The position numbers were made by a program, and so were the translations under genes. Under the pieces are notes generated by a model. It saw only the letters and a program-made list of their open reading frames with translations. It ran no database searches and was not told the origin of the DNA. Source: Fictibacillus solisalsi (GTDB lineage: Bacteria > Bacillota > Bacilli > Bacillales > Fictibacillaceae). Taken from it: a stretch of DNA of 64,000 bases. The stretch lies in the NCBI RefSeq assembly GCF_900103485.1, contig NZ_FNHW01000001.1, positions 1-64,000 on the forward strand, given 5' to 3'. The number at the start of each line of letters is the position of its first letter. Positions within the stretch are counted from its first letter, which is position 1. This document shows, piece by piece, positions 4,640 through 59,096 of the stretch.

Positions 4640-7042
4640 ATGGTGGAAACTGCCGTTCAAATTGAAAAACAGCGTCCTAAAAGGAGCCGCTGGAAGAAAA
4701 CAGCCATGATCATGATAACAGGGGTTCTCATAATCCTTGTGATTTCAGGGACAGCCGCTTATTGGCTCATGAGAAAAAGTCTCCCGGTGACCACCGGGAC
4801 AGAAACGATTTCTTCACTAACTTCTCCAGTGAACGCCTACAGAGATAAAAATGGTGTACCGCATATTGTAGCCAAAAATCTGAAGGACTTGTATATGGCG
4901 CAAGGCTATGTAACGGCTCAGGAACGGATGTTTCAAATGGACTTAAGCAGACGACAGGCCTCAGGGCAATTAAGTGAGGTGATTGGTGAAAAGACAGTGG
5001 AGAAAGACCGTTTTTTTAGAACGATGGGTTTGCGCAGGGCAGCAGAGGCCTCCTTCGAGGTATATTCTCCGGAGGCCAAAAAAGTATTGCAATGGTATGC
5101 GGACGGTGTGAATGCCTATTTGAAGGAAGCAAAAAAGAAAAAGGCACTGCCGATCGAATTTACGCTTGTGGGCTATGAGCCGAAGAAATGGACACCGGTC
5201 GATTCGCTGACCATTGGAAAATACATGGCTTTTGATCTTGGGGGGCATTGGGAAGGGCAGGCCTTCCGACAATATCTGATTCAGCACTTTCCAAAAGAAA
5301 AGGCATTGGATCTTTTCCCGTCTTATCCGGAAAACGGAGCGGAAATCATTGGTAAGGCTATGGAAACAAAAATAGACATCAAGACCCGCCTTGCGAGCGC
5401 GGTCGTACCAAACGAGTATAATGGTTCTAATAACTGGGTTGTAGCCGGGAAGAAAACAAAATCGGGCAAGCCCTATTTGGCTGATGACCCGCATCTTGGT
5501 CTCGCCACACCCTCCATCTGGTTTGAAACACAGTTGAAGGCACCAGGTATGAATGTAAGTGGGGTGGTATTTGCCGGCGTACCCGGGATTATCGTCGGTC
5601 ATAACACCAAGGTGGCCTGGGGAGTGACGAATGTAAGCCCTGATGTGCAGGATTTATATATTGAAAAAAGAAATCCCATAAACCCTGAAGAATTTCTTTA
5701 TGAAGGAAAATGGGAAAAAGCGAAGATTATTGAGGAAAATATAAAAGTAAAGGACCACAAAACCATTCCCTACAAGGTAACGGTTACCCGGCATGGTCCG
5801 ATCATGTCGGAATTTGCTCTCGATAAAAAGGAAGATACCGTCTTATCCCTGAAGTGGACGGCGCTTGAACCCTCCACTGAGCTTCAGGCCGTACTGATGT
5901 TTAATAAAGCGGAGAACTGGAACCAGTTTAAGAAAGCGCTTACGTACTTTCATACCCCTGCCCAGAATTTTGTCTTTGCTTCCCAGGATGGTACGATTGC
6001 TTACCGCGCCAACGGACTAATTCCCATTCGCGGTGAAAAATACGCTTCAGTACCGGTGCCCGGTTGGGATAAGAAATATGAGTGGAAAGGCTACATTCCA
6101 TGGGGAAAGCTGCCAACGGTTGTTAATCCGAAGGAAGGTTTCATTGCCACCGCGAACAATAAAGTTATCGGGGAGAATTACCATTACCATATTACAGATT
6201 CATGGGCACAGCCCTACCGGGAACAGAGGATTAAGGATGTGCTTTCTTCAAAGGAAAAGCTGTCAGTGAAAGACATGAAAATGCTCCAATTTGACAGGAA
6301 AAACCTGCAGGCAGAAGAAATGCTTCCTATTCTTCTGCCGCTGATTGAAAGGGATAAGCTGGATCCAAACGAGAAGAAAGCACTGCAGATTTTGAAGGAC
6401 TGGAATCATAAGGATGATAAAGAACGTGCTGCACCTTTACTGTTTAATTTATGGATGCAGGAATTCAGCAACGTGCTGTTTGAAAAAAAGATTGATCAAA
6501 AGATGATGAATCTTTTTGATGGAAAAGCTCAAGTGGTGGATGAACTTATTCGTCGTGCGACTAAAGGACAGGAAGGACCCTGGGTGAAGGAAGCTGGCGG
6601 ATTGCAAGCTGTCTCCAACCGGTCATTTTCACGAACGGTAAAGGAAGTAGAAAACATACAGGGTGAGGACACGGAGAAGTGGAATTGGGGAGCTTATCAT
6701 ACCCTTCCTTTTGATCATCCACTCGCAGCGATTAAACCGCTTAATCTGCTGTTTAATCCGAAAGAGACGGAGATGGGCGGCAGCCGGGTGACGGTCGGAG
6801 CGGCAGGCTGGGACCCTGCGACAGGAAAAGTAAATCACGGAGCCGCCTGGCGGACGGTCGTCGATCTCTCGGACCTGTCCAAATCCTATAATGTCGTCGG
6901 TCCAGGGCAATCCGGACATGTGCTGAGCAAGTGGTACGACAACCAGATCAAGGATTGGACGACGGGAAACTATCATGTAACCAATACAAAGGAAGCTTCC
7001 TTTAAAAGCGAAGAAAAACTTGTTCTTACCCCGGATCAATAA
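4640..7042 (+). CDS. Penicillin acylase family (Ntn-hydrolase) protein, membrane anchored
   Basis: About 800 residues with an N-terminal transmembrane anchor (residues 21-45), then the two regions of a penicillin-acylase-type Ntn hydrolase. The region before the cleavage site includes NAYRDKNGVPHI. The putative autoproteolysis and nucleophile site is the Ser of YNGSNNW, at residue 263 counted from this ATG; that Ser would become the N-terminus of the beta chain. Relatives hydrolyse beta-lactams, N-acyl-homoserine lactones or other acyl amides, and the substrate here is unknown. Start choice is uncertain: GGGGGAG (4631-4637) lies only 2 bases from the ATG at 4640, and a GTG at 4643 is better spaced. 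The gene is monocistronic and ends in a strong terminator. Confidence 0.88.
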   Translation: MVETAVQIEKQRPKRSRWKKTAMIMITGVLIILVISGTAAYWLMRKSLPVTTGTETISSLTSPVNAYRDKNGVPHIVAKNLKDLYMAQGYVTAQERMFQMDLSRRQASGQLSEVIGEKTVEKDRFFRTMGLRRAAEASFEVYSPEAKKVLQWYADGVNAYLKEAKKKKALPIEFTLVGYEPKKWTPVDSLTIGKYMAFDLGGHWEGQAFRQYLIQHFPKEKALDLFPSYPENGAEIIGKAMETKIDIKTRLASAVVPNEYNGSNNWVVAGKKTKSGKPYLADDPHLGLATPSIWFETQLKAPGMNVSGVVFAGVPGIIVGHNTKVAWGVTNVSPDVQDLYIEKRNPINPEEFLYEGKWEKAKIIEENIKVKDHKTIPYKVTVTRHGPIMSEFALDKKEDTVLSLKWTALEPSTELQAVLMFNKAENWNQFKKALTYFHTPAQNFVFASQDGTIAYRANGLIPIRGEKYASVPVPGWDKKYEWKGYIPWGKLPTVVNPKEGFIATANNKVIGENYHYHITDSWAQPYREQRIKDVLSSKEKLSVKDMKMLQFDRKNLQAEEMLPILLPLIERDKLDPNEKKALQILKDWNHKDDKERAAPLLFNLWMQEFSNVLFEKKIDQKMMNLFDGKAQVVDELIRRATKGQEGPWVKEAGGLQAVSNRSFSRTVKEVENIQGEDTEKWNWGAYHTLPFDHPLAAIKPLNLLFNPKETEMGGSRVTVGAAGWDPATGKVNHGAAWRTVVDLSDLSKSYNVVGPGQSGHVLSKWYDNQIKDWTTGNYHVTNTKEASFKSEEKLVLTPDQ

Positions 7043-7080
7043 AACAACCCCCCGGCTCTTTTGAGCAGGGGGGTTGTTTT
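7043..7080. terminator. Bidirectional rho-independent terminator
   Basis: A GC-rich stem (AACAACCCCCC/GGGGGGTTGTT) has A residues on one side and T residues on the other. It serves the acylase gene and the convergent DUF1206 gene, whose stop codon overlaps it. Confidence 0.9.
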
Positions 7081-7933
7081 AAGGGTCGAGCCTTCTGAAG
7101 CGTGCTTCAAAGAGCAAATAAACGCCGTAGGCTACGAGACCGAGAGCTACTATGGTCAGGAGAACCTGCCCATAGGGCTGTTTAACAAGCTCCGCAAGTG
7201 CTCCGTCCAGTCCCTTCGTCTCATCAGGGTCAGCCTGGACGGCTGAACGGATGAGAAAGATGCCCATAATGGCAAAAACCACACCATGTGCACTAATGCC
7301 GAACTTGCCGATATATCGTGCGGTCCTCCATTCCTTTTGATTCATTTCTTCACGCTTTAGCACGTTTAGATATTTTTCTTTATAGGCTTTATAAAAGTTA
7401 AATAAACCCACACCAATAATGATGGCGCCAAGAAGACCGATAATAAACTGGCCAAAAGGCTGTGCAAGGACTTTAGCTGAAAGTGTCTGATATTTCTCAC
7501 TTGATGAACCTGAACTCGCTCTGAATATGATCTTGACAGCACTAACACAAAGGCCAATATAGATGCCTGCAACTATAAGATAGCTGATCCGGGCTATCCA
7601 GCCCTTTGCGTCCTTGCCTTTATGCTCGGGATCAAAGATTGCCATAATGATTTGCCACAGCGCATAGCCGGCGAGTCCGATAGCAAGCACCGCGAGGATC
7701 ACTGAACCGAACGGCTGCTTGGCGACGGTGTAAAGAGCTCCGGAAGAAGTAGTCAATTTGCCGCTTAAACCAAACGCAGTCATGACGGCGAGTACTCCGA
7801 TGAGAATATAAACTGCACCTTTCGACAGGTGGCCAAACCGGGCCATGCGAACGATCCATGGCTCGGCTTCTTCTTTGTATTCTTCTGCTTTTCTTTCAGC
7901 GTGTTCTTTGTGCTGTGACAAATCTTTATCCAT
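7079..7933 (-). CDS. DUF1206 domain-containing integral membrane protein
   Basis: The 284-residue protein has a charged cytosolic N-terminus (residues 1-25) and about six transmembrane helices arranged as three similar pairs. Each pair begins with a short motif of the type RFGHLSKGAVYILIG or KFGISAHGVVFAIMG, which is the triplicated DUF1206 repeat. The function of the family is unknown. A ribosome binding site (AAAGGGGAA) precedes the ATG. It is monocistronic and convergent with the acylase gene. Paired Arg-Gly-His repeats suggest a structural rather than enzymatic role, but that is only inference. Confidence 0.82.
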   Translation of the reverse strand: MDKDLSQHKEHAERKAEEYKEEAEPWIVRMARFGHLSKGAVYILIGVLAVMTAFGLSGKLTTSSGALYTVAKQPFGSVILAVLAIGLAGYALWQIIMAIFDPEHKGKDAKGWIARISYLIVAGIYIGLCVSAVKIIFRASSGSSSEKYQTLSAKVLAQPFGQFIIGLLGAIIIGVGLFNFYKAYKEKYLNVLKREEMNQKEWRTARYIGKFGISAHGVVFAIMGIFLIRSAVQADPDETKGLDGALAELVKQPYGQVLLTIVALGLVAYGVYLLFEARFRRLDP

Positions 7934-50096: not shown

Positions 50097-50288
50097 GGTT
50101 CATCCCTCCTATTTATAGTATACAGGTGATCACTCGATTTGAAAGGGCAACCTTTCGTCATTTTCCGGGAAATAAATAGCGGATTCTTGAGCAAATTGGA
50201 GATAAGGGGGGAAGTTAGGAAACAAGGAAGAATAATGATATAATGACCCTAAATTAGTAGAACGGTGTATCAGAAGGGAGAGGATGTT

Positions 50289-51074
50289 GTGAAACAGAAC
50301 CTGAATCTTTTTAAGGAAAGAGTGTCATTGCTTGAGCAAGCCCTTGATTTTACTAGAGTGGGTATTACCATTACCGACCCATCGCTCCCCGACAATCCGA
50401 TTATTTATGTTAATAAAGGATTCCTGTCCATGGCTGGCTATGAATATGAAGAAGTGATCGGGAAAAATTGCCGCTTTCTTCAGGGGGAAGATACGGGTGG
50501 AAATTCTGTCAGGGAAATAAAAGAGGCTTTGCTGGAGAAGAGAAAAATTTCCACTAAACTGAGAAACTACCGAAAAGACGGCACGCCGTTTTGGAACGAG
50601 TTAACGATCGATCCCTTTTATCTGGAGGAGGAGGGAAAGTACTATTTCATTGGCATCCAAAATGACATCACTAAACAGGAAGAGTATCAGGAGAAGCTGG
50701 AAATAACATTGAATGAAATTGACCGTTTGTCCACACCTCTTGTTCCTGTTACAGATAATACGCTGGTTCTTCCATTGATCGGAAATCTATCCCGTGAACG
50801 GTTTGAAAAAATCACCGAAACGGTTGTTTCTGATACAAATGTCAGACACGCTACATATTTAATACTGGATCTTTCTGGGTTAGGCATGTTTGATGATCAC
50901 ACTTCATCCCTGATTTTTCAACTGCATCATCTTCTTAAATTGCTTGGCACGGACCTCGTGCTGACAGGGATTTCTGCCCGGCTTGCCATGAAAGCAGGCG
51001 TCAGCCATGAATTGTATCCCTTGAAAACCTATTTGTCGGTTCAAGAAGCCATCAACGAGTTGAGCAAAATATAA
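50289..51074 (+). CDS. ytvA: Blue-light photoreceptor YtvA (LOV-STAS)
   Basis: YtvA senses blue light through an FMN-binding LOV domain and activates the sigma-B stress response through the stressosome. The LOV domain (residues about 15-125) has the photoadduct Cys61 in GKNCRFLQG, then NELTIDPF and IGIQNDITKQ. A linker helix and a STAS domain (about 145-255) follow, with the LPLIGNLSRERF motif. The start is GTG at 50289 with AAGGGAGAGG upstream; an in-frame ATG at 50265 lies before that site and lacks one. The gene is monocistronic. Confidence 0.95.
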   Translation: MKQNLNLFKERVSLLEQALDFTRVGITITDPSLPDNPIIYVNKGFLSMAGYEYEEVIGKNCRFLQGEDTGGNSVREIKEALLEKRKISTKLRNYRKDGTPFWNELTIDPFYLEEEGKYYFIGIQNDITKQEEYQEKLEITLNEIDRLSTPLVPVTDNTLVLPLIGNLSRERFEKITETVVSDTNVRHATYLILDLSGLGMFDDHTSSLIFQLHHLLKLLGTDLVLTGISARLAMKAGVSHELYPLKTYLSVQEAINELSKI

Positions 51075-55176: not shown

Positions 55177-56385
55177 TCAAAAGGTACCGTCCAGCGGTTT
55201 TAAAAGATCAGGCAAAAGTTTGAGAGAAGAGTGATTCTCCATTTCTTTCTCCATCTTTTTTAACAGATCACGATCGGCAAGCTGATCTTTGTCCAGGGAA
55301 GATAAGTGAAGGTTCTTTAATAGCTGATCCTGTAAAAGCATTAGCTGTGTGGTTGCAGACTCATTATTCGGACAGAGGCCAGTGAGTGGGTTCTTTTCTT
55401 TTTGGGCCTCATCGATGAGGTTAAGTCCAAGCTTTTTTGGTACAGATCCATTTAGTTTCCCTGCCTCCTTGCAAAGCTGCAGTTTCGTTTGTTGTATCTT
55501 CTCCTTGAGTTTTTCCGGCTCGTTTTTGGCTGTTCCCTTTGTTTTATCAATGGCTTTTGGCACTTTCGCAATTTCCTTTTTTACTGGATGGGTTACATGC
55601 TCCAATGGTTTTTTTACGTGTTTTACAATATGTTCAGCATCAGGCTTTTCTTGCTTTTCATCAAGTTTTCCCTTCTTTTTGCCCGGTTTTTTTATAGAGT
55701 CCTTTGACGGTTTGGGAACTGCTTTTTTTGCTTCATCCAAAGGTGAAACAGGCTTTTCAGGAGAGTTTTCTTTGTTCTCTTTTTGGTTTTCACATGTCAG
55801 CGGCAAATGGCCATTCATGAGCTTGTCAACTGCTGCCCTTGCTTCCAACAAGGGCAGCGAGGCAAGATCCTGAAGCACTTTGGGAGCCTCTGGCCGCTGT
55901 TGTCCATGATTGCCTTTTACCGTGGAAAGCCTCAGTCTGTCCAATTCTCCCTTTGAGGCTTCCATTTTGTGTACAAGCATGGTTACCTTTTTAAGCCCAG
56001 GGTCGGGGATTGGTTTTCCCGCTGTCAGGCATGCTCCTTTTAGTGAAAATGCCGAAGCATCTGCGGTCAGATTTGTCATATGAACAGGTCCTTGTGCCTG
56101 CATAATCACAGTGACCGGCCCTTCTTCAGTCGAAAGTACCTTTGTAAGCTTCATCCCATAAAGTGTGGCATTACGGTATTGAAAGCGGATCATGGGCTTT
56201 GATTTTGCTGATGATGTTTCCCCCATGACTACTTGTGGGAGCATGATTCCGCCCTCGACCCGGTCTGCACTGACCACAAACCCTTCTTCATATTGTCCGC
56301 TTGCTGCCGCCTGTGCCTGATTTGGAACATGGAGCAAGGCCATCACAAGCAAACAGGCCAAGACTTTTATTGCCCGCATCCTCAT
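55177..56385 (-). CDS. Secreted protein with DUF6230-like N-terminal domain and Lys/Pro-rich C-terminal half
   Basis: The 402-residue protein has a signal peptide (cleavage near QAQAAA, residue 27). Residues about 30-140 (GFVVSADRVEGG...MGETSS...ATLYGMKLTKVL...GPVHMTNLTADASAFSLKG) align by eye with the DUF6230 protein encoded two genes upstream. The second half is Lys/Pro/Glu-rich and probably extended, with Cys residues in LTCENQ, LQLCKE and GLCPNN that could form disulfides. The ATG overlaps the DUF6114 stop (ATGA), so translation is coupled. No enzyme motif is seen; a wall or surface protein is likely. Confidence 0.7.
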   Translation of the reverse strand: MRMRAIKVLACLLVMALLHVPNQAQAAASGQYEEGFVVSADRVEGGIMLPQVVMGETSSAKSKPMIRFQYRNATLYGMKLTKVLSTEEGPVTVIMQAQGPVHMTNLTADASAFSLKGACLTAGKPIPDPGLKKVTMLVHKMEASKGELDRLRLSTVKGNHGQQRPEAPKVLQDLASLPLLEARAAVDKLMNGHLPLTCENQKENKENSPEKPVSPLDEAKKAVPKPSKDSIKKPGKKKGKLDEKQEKPDAEHIVKHVKKPLEHVTHPVKKEIAKVPKAIDKTKGTAKNEPEKLKEKIQQTKLQLCKEAGKLNGSVPKKLGLNLIDEAQKEKNPLTGLCPNNESATTQLMLLQDQLLKNLHLSSLDKDQLADRDLLKKMEKEMENHSSLKLLPDLLKPLDGTF

Positions 56386-56786
56386 TTCGCTTCTACCAGT
56401 TCAGGAGACTCATAGCCGGTATAGGCAACATTTTGATCATCATTCTTCTGATGGGGGGCAGGAGGGTTCCATGCAATCATCAGGGATCCCCCAGTAATGC
56501 CAAGTAATGTTCCGATGAGAAACCCACCCAGAGCTCCGATCACGGACAATATGGATAAAAAAATCGTTATAATGCCGAGCACTTTGGAGAATTGAGGGAA
56601 AGACATAGCTATAGCACCAAGCAAAAGAATCATGCCGCCAAAGAAAATGCCAATTACAGAGACAGTACCTGGGAGAAAAGCTTTCACGATAAGATTCAAG
56701 GGCACCCACAGGGTCAATGCCCCTGATATCAAGGTCAGCAGTGACCCGGTAAAGGGGCGTTCATATTTCCATTGTCTAACGGACAT
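56382..56786 (-). CDS. DUF6114 domain integral membrane protein
   Basis: The 134-residue protein has four membrane helices and a short polar tail (NPPAPHQKNDDQNVA). The layout (W-x-x-x-RPFTGSLLTLISGALTL, later GGFLIGTLLGITGGSLMIAWNP) fits DUF6114, a family mainly known from actinobacteria, where it neighbours DUF6230. Function unknown. It follows the DUF6230 gene by 18 bases and overlaps the downstream gene. Confidence 0.75.
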   Translation of the reverse strand: MSVRQWKYERPFTGSLLTLISGALTLWVPLNLIVKAFLPGTVSVIGIFFGGMILLLGAIAMSFPQFSKVLGIITIFLSILSVIGALGGFLIGTLLGITGGSLMIAWNPPAPHQKNDDQNVAYTGYESPELVEAK

Positions 56787-56804
56787 CTTTATTCCTCCTT
56801 GTCG

Positions 56805-57401
56805 TTAATTGGCTGGTTTGTTGATGCGTTCCACCGTAACTTTCATTCCATTCATCACAATCTTCTCTTGGAAAAGGTAATGCGTTTTAATTTTTGCATG
56901 ATTTAGTTCAATAGTTGAAGACATTTGCTGAAACTGTTTCTGCCAGTCACTGCTCTGTTTTTCTTTCAATGCAAGGTTGCTGAACTTGGCATCTGCATTG
57001 ATCACAGATGCGTCCTGCTGCAGACCGGAGATATGAACCGGTTTACTGGCGGCAATTTTAACACGGATCCATTTGTCACCGCTAATATTGAAATCTTTAT
57101 ACAGCTGCAGATGATCAATGGTTAAATCCTTAATCAGGTTGGTGCCCTGAGGAGCCGATTTCTCCTTGCTGGATTCACCCATTTTCGGGTAGAAGGTATA
57201 GCCGTTTCCTTCCAGGTGATCAAACTCAACATAGAAATTGCCCACTCCTGCCATAGGGATGGCGTAAGCAGTTCCGGATATTCCCATAAAGCTCAGCAGT
57301 GCAGCCAGTACCACCATGCCTGATGCAAAAGCTTTCCAAAACACTTTTTTGTTCATGTTTCCTTTGTTGATGGTTGTTTTCAATTCGATCGTTTTACCCA
57401 T
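56805..57401 (-). CDS. DUF6230 family secreted/surface protein
   Basis: The 198-residue protein has a signal or anchor segment (about residues 24-47, ending in TAYA). The beta-rich mature domain has FYVEFDHLEGNGYTFYPKMG, LTIDHLQLYKDF and PVHISGLQQDASVINADAKFSNLALKE. This fits DUF6230. AAGGGTGGGA precedes the ATG. It is first in a three-gene operon that is divergent from a GAF-LuxR gene. No enzymatic residues are evident; a structural or adhesive surface role is inferred. Confidence 0.75.
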   Translation of the reverse strand: MGKTIELKTTINKGNMNKKVFWKAFASGMVVLAALLSFMGISGTAYAIPMAGVGNFYVEFDHLEGNGYTFYPKMGESSKEKSAPQGTNLIKDLTIDHLQLYKDFNISGDKWIRVKIAASKPVHISGLQQDASVINADAKFSNLALKEKQSSDWQKQFQQMSSTIELNHAKIKTHYLFQEKIVMNGMKVTVERINKPAN

Positions 57402-57427
57402 CAGTATCCCACCCTTTTTTAAAATGT

Positions 57428-57441
57428 TGAAAGCGCTTTAA
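57428..57441. promoter_or_regulatory. Possible CcpA (cre) site
   Basis: TGAAAGCGCTTTAA fits the cre consensus TGWAANCGNTNWCA with one mismatch and contains the palindrome AAAGCGCTTT. It lies 27 bases upstream of the DUF6230 start, where a bound repressor would block the operon. Confidence 0.45.
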
Positions 57442-57504
57442 TAATGTAACTGTACGGTTTGGTTAGTATGTTGACAATTCCGATAAGTATCGTAATTAAG
57501 ATGA

Positions 57505-57528
57505 TTACCCCGACATTTGTCGGGGTAA
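57505..57528. promoter_or_regulatory. Perfect palindrome between divergent operons
   Basis: TTACCCCGACA, TT, TGTCGGGGTAA: two perfect 11-base arms with a 2-base centre, in the 5' leader of the LuxR-type gene. TTGACA with TAATTA (16-base spacer, 57471-57498) lies just upstream as a possible promoter for that gene. The palindrome suits a dimeric regulator binding site. Confidence 0.65.
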
Positions 57529-57599
57529 ATGGGCGGATATTGTAAAAAGATTTCGAAAACTATAAAGTGAATGTAAGCAGTGGGGAGGAGGGGCATGAG

Positions 57600-59096
57600 A
57601 TGGACGAGCTTTTTTTAAATGGCATGGCATTATTGGCGAAGTATGGCGGAGACATATTAAATAACTGGAAAACGATAAAAACTGAGCTATCCTCTTTGCA
57701 TGAACAGGACCTCATTACGGAATTTGACGGAATGATGACTTACTCCTTTGAAGAATTGCTGAAAAAGAACGATTGTCAGCATATCAATCAGCTCATACTT
57801 GCCATGATTTCACAATGGAGAGATCATTATTCCATGGATGTTGACTACAGCCAGGTTATTTTTTTGCTGTCAGCCATTGAAAATATGATTCACCACATTC
57901 TTGAACAGGAAGAAAATCCAAGGATTATCGATCATCAGTCCATTCAGTATATTTTCAACAAGCTTTTAGACCACGTCCTGATTCCTTTAACATCGGAAAC
58001 GAGCGGGCGCCAGTGGCTGGATACGATGATTACCTCTAACATTATCCCGCTTTATTGGGCTGCGCTGCTGCGAATAGAGGATGTCGAGTATAAAGTAATC
58101 GATCTGAAAAGCGTGGATACCGGCCAGGACAGTCAATCGCTCATAGAAATCTGTAAAACGATGTCCGCTCCCACCTCCGAACAGCTGTCCCTTGCTTTGT
58201 GCCGCCTGATGAATCCTGGTACCCAACAGCCGATAGTCATACCTGTTTCCTTTTCTAAAGAAACCTTGCTGCTTTGTGTAAAATCAACCGAAGCGGGAAG
58301 CATTTCTTCCCAGCGTATTGAATTGATTTCGAACATGTACAAAAAGCAGCTCAAGATGAATACACTTGAAAGTGAAAATGAATGGAAGGATGCAGCGCTT
58401 TTATATACACTCCGATTGCTTATGGCACAAACATGTACCGAAACGCTTAAAACGGTTACGGATGGATTTGTGGATTATTTAAAATTTGAAAGAAGTGCCC
58501 TCTTTCTTTACTCCCCGCGGGTGGAGCGGGTTGTATTTGCGGCTCACCGCAACCTGGGTTATAATCTTCAGGATATCCAAGTTAATTTTACTGAGGTTGC
58601 TTTTTTAAAGAATCATTTGCAGAAAATTCTTCAATCCAAGCCCATTTATCTTGAGGATGCTTCCAAGCAGATCCCTAAAGAGCTGACAGACCAATTCAAG
58701 GTGGCATCACTCATTGCCGTTCCGGTGTTCACACCGCGAAAAGGACGTTTTCTCGGTCTCGTATTGCTTGATTGTAATGGAGCACAGTTTGAGGAACCGA
58801 CACCAAACGAGCAGGCCATGCTTATGAAATTCGGTCAGTATGCTGGAGAGGCTCTTTATAAGCAATGGAGAACGGTTATTCAGCTGCTTGACATGGATTC
58901 ACCAATCTTGACACCAAGAGAAAAAGAGGTACTGAAGCTGATGGCACAGGGGGAAACCATCCAGCGGGCCGCTTCACTTCTTCATTTAAGCCATTACACC
59001 GTAAGGGATTACGTAGCCGGTATCATAAAAAAATTAAAAGTGAAGAATCGGACGGAGGCTGTTGTGAAAGCCATTCGGATGAATTTTATTGAATAA
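57600..59096 (+). CDS. GAF-domain LuxR-family transcriptional regulator
   Basis: The 498-residue protein has a helical N-terminal half (about 1-260) without a recognised family, a GAF-like domain (about 285-420; FERSALFLYSPRVERVVFAAH and LIAVPVFTPRKGRFLGLVLLD) and a C-terminal LuxR helix-turn-helix (about 435-495; LTPREKEVLKLMAQGETIQRAA, HLSHYTVRDYVAGIIKKL). There is no receiver domain. The ATG at 57600 follows GGGGAGGAGGGG; an in-frame start 33 bases earlier lies before that site. It is divergent from the DUF6230/DUF6114 operon, its most likely target. Confidence 0.82.
   Translation: MDELFLNGMALLAKYGGDILNNWKTIKTELSSLHEQDLITEFDGMMTYSFEELLKKNDCQHINQLILAMISQWRDHYSMDVDYSQVIFLLSAIENMIHHILEQEENPRIIDHQSIQYIFNKLLDHVLIPLTSETSGRQWLDTMITSNIIPLYWAALLRIEDVEYKVIDLKSVDTGQDSQSLIEICKTMSAPTSEQLSLALCRLMNPGTQQPIVIPVSFSKETLLLCVKSTEAGSISSQRIELISNMYKKQLKMNTLESENEWKDAALLYTLRLLMAQTCTETLKTVTDGFVDYLKFERSALFLYSPRVERVVFAAHRNLGYNLQDIQVNFTEVAFLKNHLQKILQSKPIYLEDASKQIPKELTDQFKVASLIAVPVFTPRKGRFLGLVLLDCNGAQFEEPTPNEQAMLMKFGQYAGEALYKQWRTVIQLLDMDSPILTPREKEVLKLMAQGETIQRAASLLHLSHYTVRDYVAGIIKKLKVKNRTEAVVKAIRMNFIE

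Follow-up and report, generated by a model that had tools for sequence, protein, structure and literature searches.

What might a conserved group of genes for two secreted proteins, a membrane protein and a transcriptional regulator be doing in the soil bacterium Fictibacillus solisalsi? The genes, here named A, B, C and R, lie in a window of 64,000 nucleotides, positions 1 to 64,000 of contig NZ_FNHW01000001.1 (assembly GCF_900103485.1). A, B and C form an operon, and R is divergent from it. With a little more confidence than doubt, we read this locus as a four-part surface module for dealing with hydrophobic long-chain molecules, namely alkanes or comparable long-chain lipids. It would be under regulation, and its activity would probably be uptake. 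The genes, the homology of A and C, gene order, co-distribution, operator motif, promoter geometry and co-occurrence with R2loxI were computed in this work; alkane induction, location in the membrane fraction, processed N-termini and alkane oxidation by a neighbouring R2loxI are known from published work on Geobacillus relatives, cited below.

Four genes kept together

The coupling of a DUF6230 secreted protein with a DUF6114 membrane protein, proposed in an initial annotation of this DNA, is borne out by Pfam: A scores 36.9 bits against PF19741 (curated cut-off 27.5) and B 90.3 bits against PF19609 (cut-off 27.9). All 32 aligned homologues of A match DUF6230 at E<=0.01. The signal peptide of A probably ends in ..GTAYA, the mature protein beginning IPMAGVG, and the mature N-terminus sequenced for Geobacillus P16 aligns at this predicted cleavage place. 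In two relatives, A proteins end in LPDTA followed by a hydrophobic segment; such an end is a generic anchor of the sortase type and agrees with a place at the surface. Two loci carry tandem A genes (L061:6107-6889 and L064:6070-6870), and the first of each pair ends in this way. Hydropathy shows several hydrophobic segments in B, which overlaps C by 4 nt (56382-56385); close relatives of B were found on five named contigs, four from Fictibacillus and one from Mesobacillus harenae. The divergent regulator was described from the outset as LuxR-type without a receiver domain, and Pfam agrees: R has GAF at residues 292-430 and GerE at 447-502, and at E<=1 it matches only GAF and helix-turn-helix (HTH) families, with neither a receiver domain nor a MalT-type ATPase part, while NCBIfam response-regulator matches are confined to the HTH end. 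By reading, the true start of R is probably ATG 57600, after GGGAGGAGG, and the genome of the window gives a single R match at E<=1e-10.

The resemblance of C to DUF6230 had been noticed by eye, and a profile check of the two secreted proteins found it again. The phmmer searches connect the two sets in both directions (from A to a C protein at E 4.4e-6, from C to an A protein at E 3.7e-10), and a profile-profile alignment (hhalign) of 32 A with 25 C proteins gives probability 98.5 and E 1.5e-15 over 127 columns. Five of the 25 C homologues match DUF6230 in Pfam at E<=0.01 (best 3.8e-6), while C of the window matches zero Pfam families at E<=1 and stays below the curated DUF6230 cut-off; by profile comparison, C is a distant DUF6230 relative and not a Pfam member. 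Its signal peptide is followed by the DUF6230-like domain (residues ~33-198), a low-complexity linker (~200-298) and a helical, cysteine-containing end (~300-402). The tail is rich in Lys and Pro (21% K, 8% P) and contains Cys, as originally described. Cysteines pair as 119/198, 79 residues apart, and 305/338, 33 apart, and these exact spacings recur in 18 and 16 of 37 C proteins, respectively. In an AlphaFold2 (AF2) model of C, residues 36-157 are rich in beta structure and the end is helical, whereas confidence is very low across 200-298; block means are 60-86 over residues 31-200 and 25-36 in the linker. Searched against solved structures, the A profile gave zero matches, and the C profile found apolipoprotein E at E 0.0063 at best among 54 matches at E<=1, mostly helical proteins; in Pfam, C homologues matched apolipophorin-III (5 of 25), apolipoprotein (3 of 25) and phasin (2 of 25). 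An 11-residue periodicity is strong in L044, L068, L070 and L073 (z 7.9-14.6, 300 shuffles) and weak in C of the window (2.6). We rejected the apolipoprotein-type matches as homology and take them to reflect a low-complexity, perhaps amphipathic, linker.

The pair had been thought notable for this lineage as one known chiefly from actinobacteria, a framing that our counts within the order do not support: there it is widespread and no peculiarity of this genome. We surveyed a sample of the order (348 genomes, 126 genera) and one of the phylum (398 genomes, 267 genera). Only part of the first-look candidates was scored in many genomes, so that presence counts are lower bounds and absences are not proof: DUF6114 was found in at least 39 genomes of the order from 20 genera and in at least 8 genomes of the phylum sample from 4 genera. 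DUF6230 was detected in 38 genomes of the order, every one DUF6114-positive, and in the 39th DUF6114 genome, G269, A proteins were detected by phmmer. Of five stretches opened from outside the order, three (L122, L123, L124) have A next to B; the other two are GC-rich, with genes that could not be called. A weak DUF6114 match in G001 (E 8.6e-4, under the cut-off), with no module around it (L081), was omitted from the counts. A profile of the R N-terminal domain, with at most 6 first-look candidates scored per genome, placed R in 40 of the 348 genomes, namely 37 of the 39 module-positive and 3 of the 309 others; genome G022, of the same genus as the window, has neither module nor R. A tblastn search of plasmids with B (at E<=0.01) and with the A protein from L058 (at E<=0.1) found nothing, and no relative of two A proteins was found in viral contigs.

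Gene order was compared across 42 loci, comprising neighbourhoods from 34 of the 39 module-positive genomes (the window included; G045 gave two loci of the total) and seven beyond that set, two from a family search and five named loci. This co-occurrence survey found the genes kept together in other genomes. A precedes B on one strand in all 42, with A or B supplied by family searches where the gene caller missed it (L049, L073, L077), and C follows A-B in 37. R lies upstream on the opposite strand in 29 loci (called genes intervene in L049, L051 and L064) and downstream and convergent in 3; 10 have no R within the fetched stretch. A/C, B and R alone recur in at least 16 genus groups and every other neighbour family in at most 4, so the flanking genes of the window were not counted as parts. 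At the P16-type locus L062, a Staygreen-family gene (PF12638, E 4.9e-45; 6680-7177, minus strand) directly follows A-B, in the usual place of C, and a gene of similar size follows A-B in L055 and L080.

A candidate paired operator beside a predicted promoter

Two operator-like sites lie between R and A, next to a predicted promoter for the operon and a box resembling a catabolite-responsive element (cre) (Table 1). Scored on 12 positions, the operator reached at least 11 upstream of the first A gene at 27 of the 41 module loci, which represent 16 of 22 genus-level groups, against 2 of 322 control upstream regions of other genes, a count that is partly in-sample because the consensus was derived from the same loci; at a score of at least 10, the figures are 34 of 41 and 24 of 322. 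Upstream stretches of 300 nt were scanned at module loci and of 260 nt at controls, and the 27 loci stay the same when the former are cut to 260 nt; L049 was left out because its A had escaped the gene caller, and L080 offers just 79 nt. Out of sample, the three genomes that carry R without the module have operators scoring 12, 12 and 11 of 12 at ~290, 830 and 100 nt from R (L137, L138, L139). Among module genomes without full-length R, G019 and G335 are also without the operator. In L137 and L138, the exact operator sits between R and the gene for a 995-aa membrane protein, a possible further target of R; this protein is of the ABC2-membrane type in L137, as tested, and similar by reading in L138.

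In a search that allowed offsets of 8-25 and spacers of 16-18, 21 of 34 loci, from 11 genus-level groups, had as their best -35/-10 pair one with a 17-nt spacer that starts precisely 2 nt past the operator core. The window stretch has no general excess of promoter-like sites (8 against 7.1 expected). A geometry of this kind is expected of an activator that touches the -35 region. Since the paired palindromic operator lies 2 nt upstream of the predicted -35, R is probably an activator of A-B-C that binds these operators. Scored against the general cre consensus, a box of at least 13/14 positions occurs upstream in 17 of 41 module loci and in 9 of 322 controls, which suggests catabolite repression of the operon, probably through CcpA.

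In the 4.8 Mb genome of the window, the exact operator core turns up twice, at this locus and immediately before a phosphotransferase-like gene, against 7 places for a control pattern; with one mismatch allowed, there are 71 sites for the operator and 163 for the control pattern. Three places were opened, two with single sites inside coding genes and the third with a pair before a methyltransferase-like gene. A wider Fictibacillus regulon was rejected as chance, less firmly so for the methyltransferase-like pair.

Table 1. Positions of the four genes and of the candidate regulatory sites in the window
Feature	Positions	Strand	Description	Basis
Gene A	56805-57401	-	DUF6230 secreted protein	PF19741 E 5.3e-9
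Gene B	56382-56786	-	DUF6114 membrane protein	PF19609 E 1.6e-25
Gene C	55177-56385	-	Secreted protein, DUF6230-like N-domain	hhalign vs A family E 1.5e-15
Gene R	57567-59096	+	GAF-LuxR regulator	GAF E 4.8e-7, GerE E 2e-14
Operator 1 (putative)	57505-57528 (core 57510-57523)		Palindrome TTACCCCGACA-TT-TGTCGGGGTAA	24 bp, 11-nt arms fully complementary
Operator 2 core (putative)	57480-57493		11/12 positions; 30 bp from operator 1, nearer A	Motif scan
A-B-C promoter (predicted)	57449-57477	-	-35 TTGTCA, 17 nt, -10 TACAGT	-35 starts 2 nt after operator 2
cre-like box	57427-57442	-	ATTAAAGCGCTTTCAA	13/14 positions

Relatives of A and the link to alkanes

The connection to hydrocarbons comes from two proteins of Geobacillus thermoleovorans B23, P16 and P21, which are strongly raised on alkanes, the more so with longer chains (Kato 2009, PMC2676291). 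Both are found in the insoluble membrane fraction, their N-termini follow likely signal peptides, and they are not induced by palmitic acid, tributyrin or trimyristin, nor by alkanes in rich broth (PMC2676291). The printed P21 peptides agree with the DUF6230 protein of L077 and L078 at 16/17, 16/16, 18-19/19 and 18/19 residues, and the P16 N-terminus agrees with the L062 protein at 14/15 called residues. These L062, L077 and L078 proteins align with A of the window in one DUF6230 alignment, by which A is homologous to P16 and P21, and the N-terminus of A is closer to P16 (9/15 called residues) than to P21 (7/17). In G. kaustophilus, GK3040 is the P16 orthologue and GK2770 the P21 orthologue, the latter in the cluster of GK2771, an R2lox protein (R2loxI) that is reported to oxidise alkanes (Nithimethachoke 2024, PMC10867098); public models of GK2770 and GK3040 show a large beta-barrel (PMC10867098). 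The DUF6230 gene of L077 and L078 adjoins R2lox in the same way as GK2770 adjoins GK2771.

P16/P21 and GK3040/GK2770 are, like A, secreted DUF6230 proteins of ~200 aa with a processed N-terminus xPxxGVGxF, and the loci that match P16 and P21 have the DUF6230 gene followed by the DUF6114 gene, as in the window. The window differs in that A-B is followed by C, which is missing after A-B in three P16-type loci of Geobacillus (L055, L062, L080). In the P21-type loci (L076-L078), R is convergent and B is longer, with DUF6114 forming its last part in L076 and L078 as their genes were called. LuxR is mentioned in neither PMC2676291 nor PMC10867098, and their available text is silent on C and the operator. 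P16 and P21 were thus already known; the complete module, its regulator, the operator and the co-distribution with R2loxI were not found in the literature searched.

Does R2loxI travel with the module? A query protein from L050, picked from beside a module, gave R2lox matches at E<=1e-40 in 54 of the 348 genomes of the order. A gap in the best scores separates 13 genomes that reach >=298 bits, the R2loxI type, from the other 41, which stay at <=244 bits, a split drawn after the list had been seen and with overlapping identities (>=51% vs 40-52%). All 13 R2loxI-type genomes, from 8 of 8 genera, are module-positive (hypergeometric 6e-14 and 1e-7), and with the genome of the query removed, 12 of 12 genomes and 7 of 7 genera still are (5e-13, 6e-7), phylogeny being taken into account by genus count only. 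The second group is module-positive in 11 of 41 genomes. Neighbours of the L077 locus are R2lox, alcohol dehydrogenase (ADH) and aldehyde dehydrogenase (ALDH), and those of L076 are R2lox, ADH, P450, ferredoxin and a pyridine-nucleotide reductase.

R itself also keeps such company. Four genomes in which R stands apart from A-B-C were opened: in L125 its neighbours are an ABC1-type kinase, ALDH, ADH and R2loxI (Pfam-tested), and the same by reading in L126; in L127 they are acyl-CoA ligase, R2loxI, thiolase, enoyl-CoA hydratase and acyl-CoA dehydrogenase; and in L133 they are acyl-CoA ligase and acyl-CoA dehydrogenase, with no R2loxI in the stretch. L130 has an exact operator between its R2loxI and ADH genes, L129 has one directly ahead of SCP2-R2loxI, and L127 has an 11/12 operator before an SCP2 gene ~6 kb from R2loxI. 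An ABC1-type atypical kinase gene (PF03109) was seen near P21-type or R2loxI loci in L076, L079, L123 and L125. In two stretches (L131:5468-7255, L132:5812-7521), a shorter LuxR-type regulator (~230 aa), matching the R model and GerE with no GAF match at E<=1e-5, is divergent to a second-group R2lox gene, so regulators of this kind may be commoner companions of R2lox genes than the R2loxI loci alone suggest.

The mechanism that we propose begins with R, which would sense the hydrophobic substrate, or a signal or product derived from it, through its GAF or N-terminal domain, bind the two operators just upstream of the -35 and turn on A-B-C, while CcpA would probably keep the operon off on good carbon sources. 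The exported A and C would bind the hydrophobic molecule outside the membrane through their beta-rich DUF6230 domains, C extending outward on its flexible linker, and B would hold the assembly at the membrane and let the molecule pass into the bilayer; oxidation would then fall to whichever monooxygenase the genome has. A bolder version, which we advance only tentatively and hold to be somewhat doubtful, makes A-B-C a dedicated Gram-positive hydrocarbon-acquisition machine, in which paired DUF6230 domains carry long-chain alkanes or lipids from outside to a membrane port made by DUF6114. A single GAF-LuxR regulator would govern it, and the conserved two-site operator of this regulator would also control R2loxI-type alkane oxidation in several genera.

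Beyond P16 and P21, the nearest known systems are Gram-negative. AlkS, the LuxR/MalT activator of the Pseudomonas putida alkane genes, shares with R a LuxR-type HTH and, as proposed for R, activation, an alkane link and global carbon control (PMC3664771), whereas R has a GAF domain and an N-terminal domain of its own, with no MalT-type domain in Pfam, and is not filed as AlkS. AlkL and the lipocalin-like Blc, postulated for alkane uptake in Gram-negative bacteria, are likewise envelope proteins tied to alkane use (PMC3664771), but they are outer-membrane proteins, and the A-B-C module belongs to Gram-positive cells.

Weighing the readings

Several observations count against a module for long-chain hydrocarbons or lipids under the control of R. 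Kato 2009 did not find the P16/P21 gene in G. thermodenitrificans (PMC2676291), and strain NG80-2 of this species relies on LadA to oxidise long alkanes, so alkane use does not depend on the module in every case. In the work on P16 and P21, their genes could not be disrupted (PMC2676291), which leaves uptake without genetic proof. On the regulatory side, the operator count is in part in-sample, G054 has the operator with R not detectable, and there is no second convincing operator in the genome of the window; among the nine R/R2lox stretches opened, L125, L126 and L133 have 11/12 sites only within coding genes, and L128, L131 and L132 have no operator. A Foldseek search with the C model gave no match at E<=0.001, the VIA-align result barely covering the DUF6230-like domain. 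The R2loxI type is absent from 26 of the 39 genomes that carry the module. The window locus has no alkane gene as a neighbour, and its genome gives no R2lox match at E<=1e-40; its P450 genes and one FMN-monooxygenase above the cut-off belong to broad families, which also match control genomes such as B. subtilis. Alkanes, waxes and other lipids with long chains are thus all candidate substrates in Fictibacillus.

Might A and C instead shield the cell, coating its surface or strengthening it when hydrocarbons or lipids cause stress, with R responding to membrane perturbation? We consider this envelope protection unlikely. It would accommodate the many module genomes without R2loxI and the operator before the 995-aa membrane protein in two R-bearing, module-free genomes, and Kato 2009 leaves uptake, tolerance or degradation open (PMC2676291). 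Several genera, however, have R or its operator beside R2loxI, ADH, ALDH, acyl-CoA ligase and acyl-CoA dehydrogenase, and the cre-like control suggests a catabolic role. Older Streptomyces labels of "cholesterol esterase" point another way, to A (and C) as secreted lipid esterases that feed fatty acids to beta-oxidation: the P16/P21 N-termini were noted to be similar to a Streptomyces lavendulae cholesterol esterase (PMC2676291), and SCO5420, a possible DUF6230 protein that carries this label, rises almost 37-fold on Tween. We find this improbable, as Kato 2009 describes the whole-length similarity as negligible and P16/P21 stay uninduced by palmitic acid or the triacylglycerols tested (PMC2676291), while a GxSxG motif is found in 0 of 45 A proteins and not in C of the window. 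We give equally little credence to a general surface or adhesion structure without a hydrophobic substrate, in which the alkane link would be limited to the P21-type branch; the lack of alkane genes near the window locus and the LPDTA ends of A in two relatives speak for it, but P16, N-terminally closer to A of the window, is also alkane-induced (PMC2676291), and the R N-terminal domain is common to loci of both branches.

Handling of long-chain hydrophobic molecules at the cell surface is the reading we prefer. The initial annotation had called the locus a regulated cell-surface assembly of unknown function. From the signal peptides of A and C, the membrane protein B and the R and operator conserved with them, we infer a regulated assembly at the surface, with binding or uptake as its proposed activity; Geobacillus P16/P21 and R2loxI allow "unknown" to be narrowed to the handling of long-chain hydrocarbons or lipids.

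Bacterial alkane uptake was called unclear in a 2013 review (PMC3664771). The module proposed here lends itself to ordinary laboratory work: its four genes can be deleted and its operator bound, the geometry of its promoter is predicted, and it occurs in 20 of the 126 genera sampled from one order. It would give the orphan Pfam families DUF6230 and DUF6114 a testable function, offer two orphan alkane-induced proteins, P16 and P21, a candidate regulator and candidate partners, and make Gram-positive oil uptake directly testable.

Elsewhere in the window, positions 50265-51074 (plus strand) encode a protein that by reading may be a LOV/PAS plus STAS blue-light stress sensor resembling YtvA.

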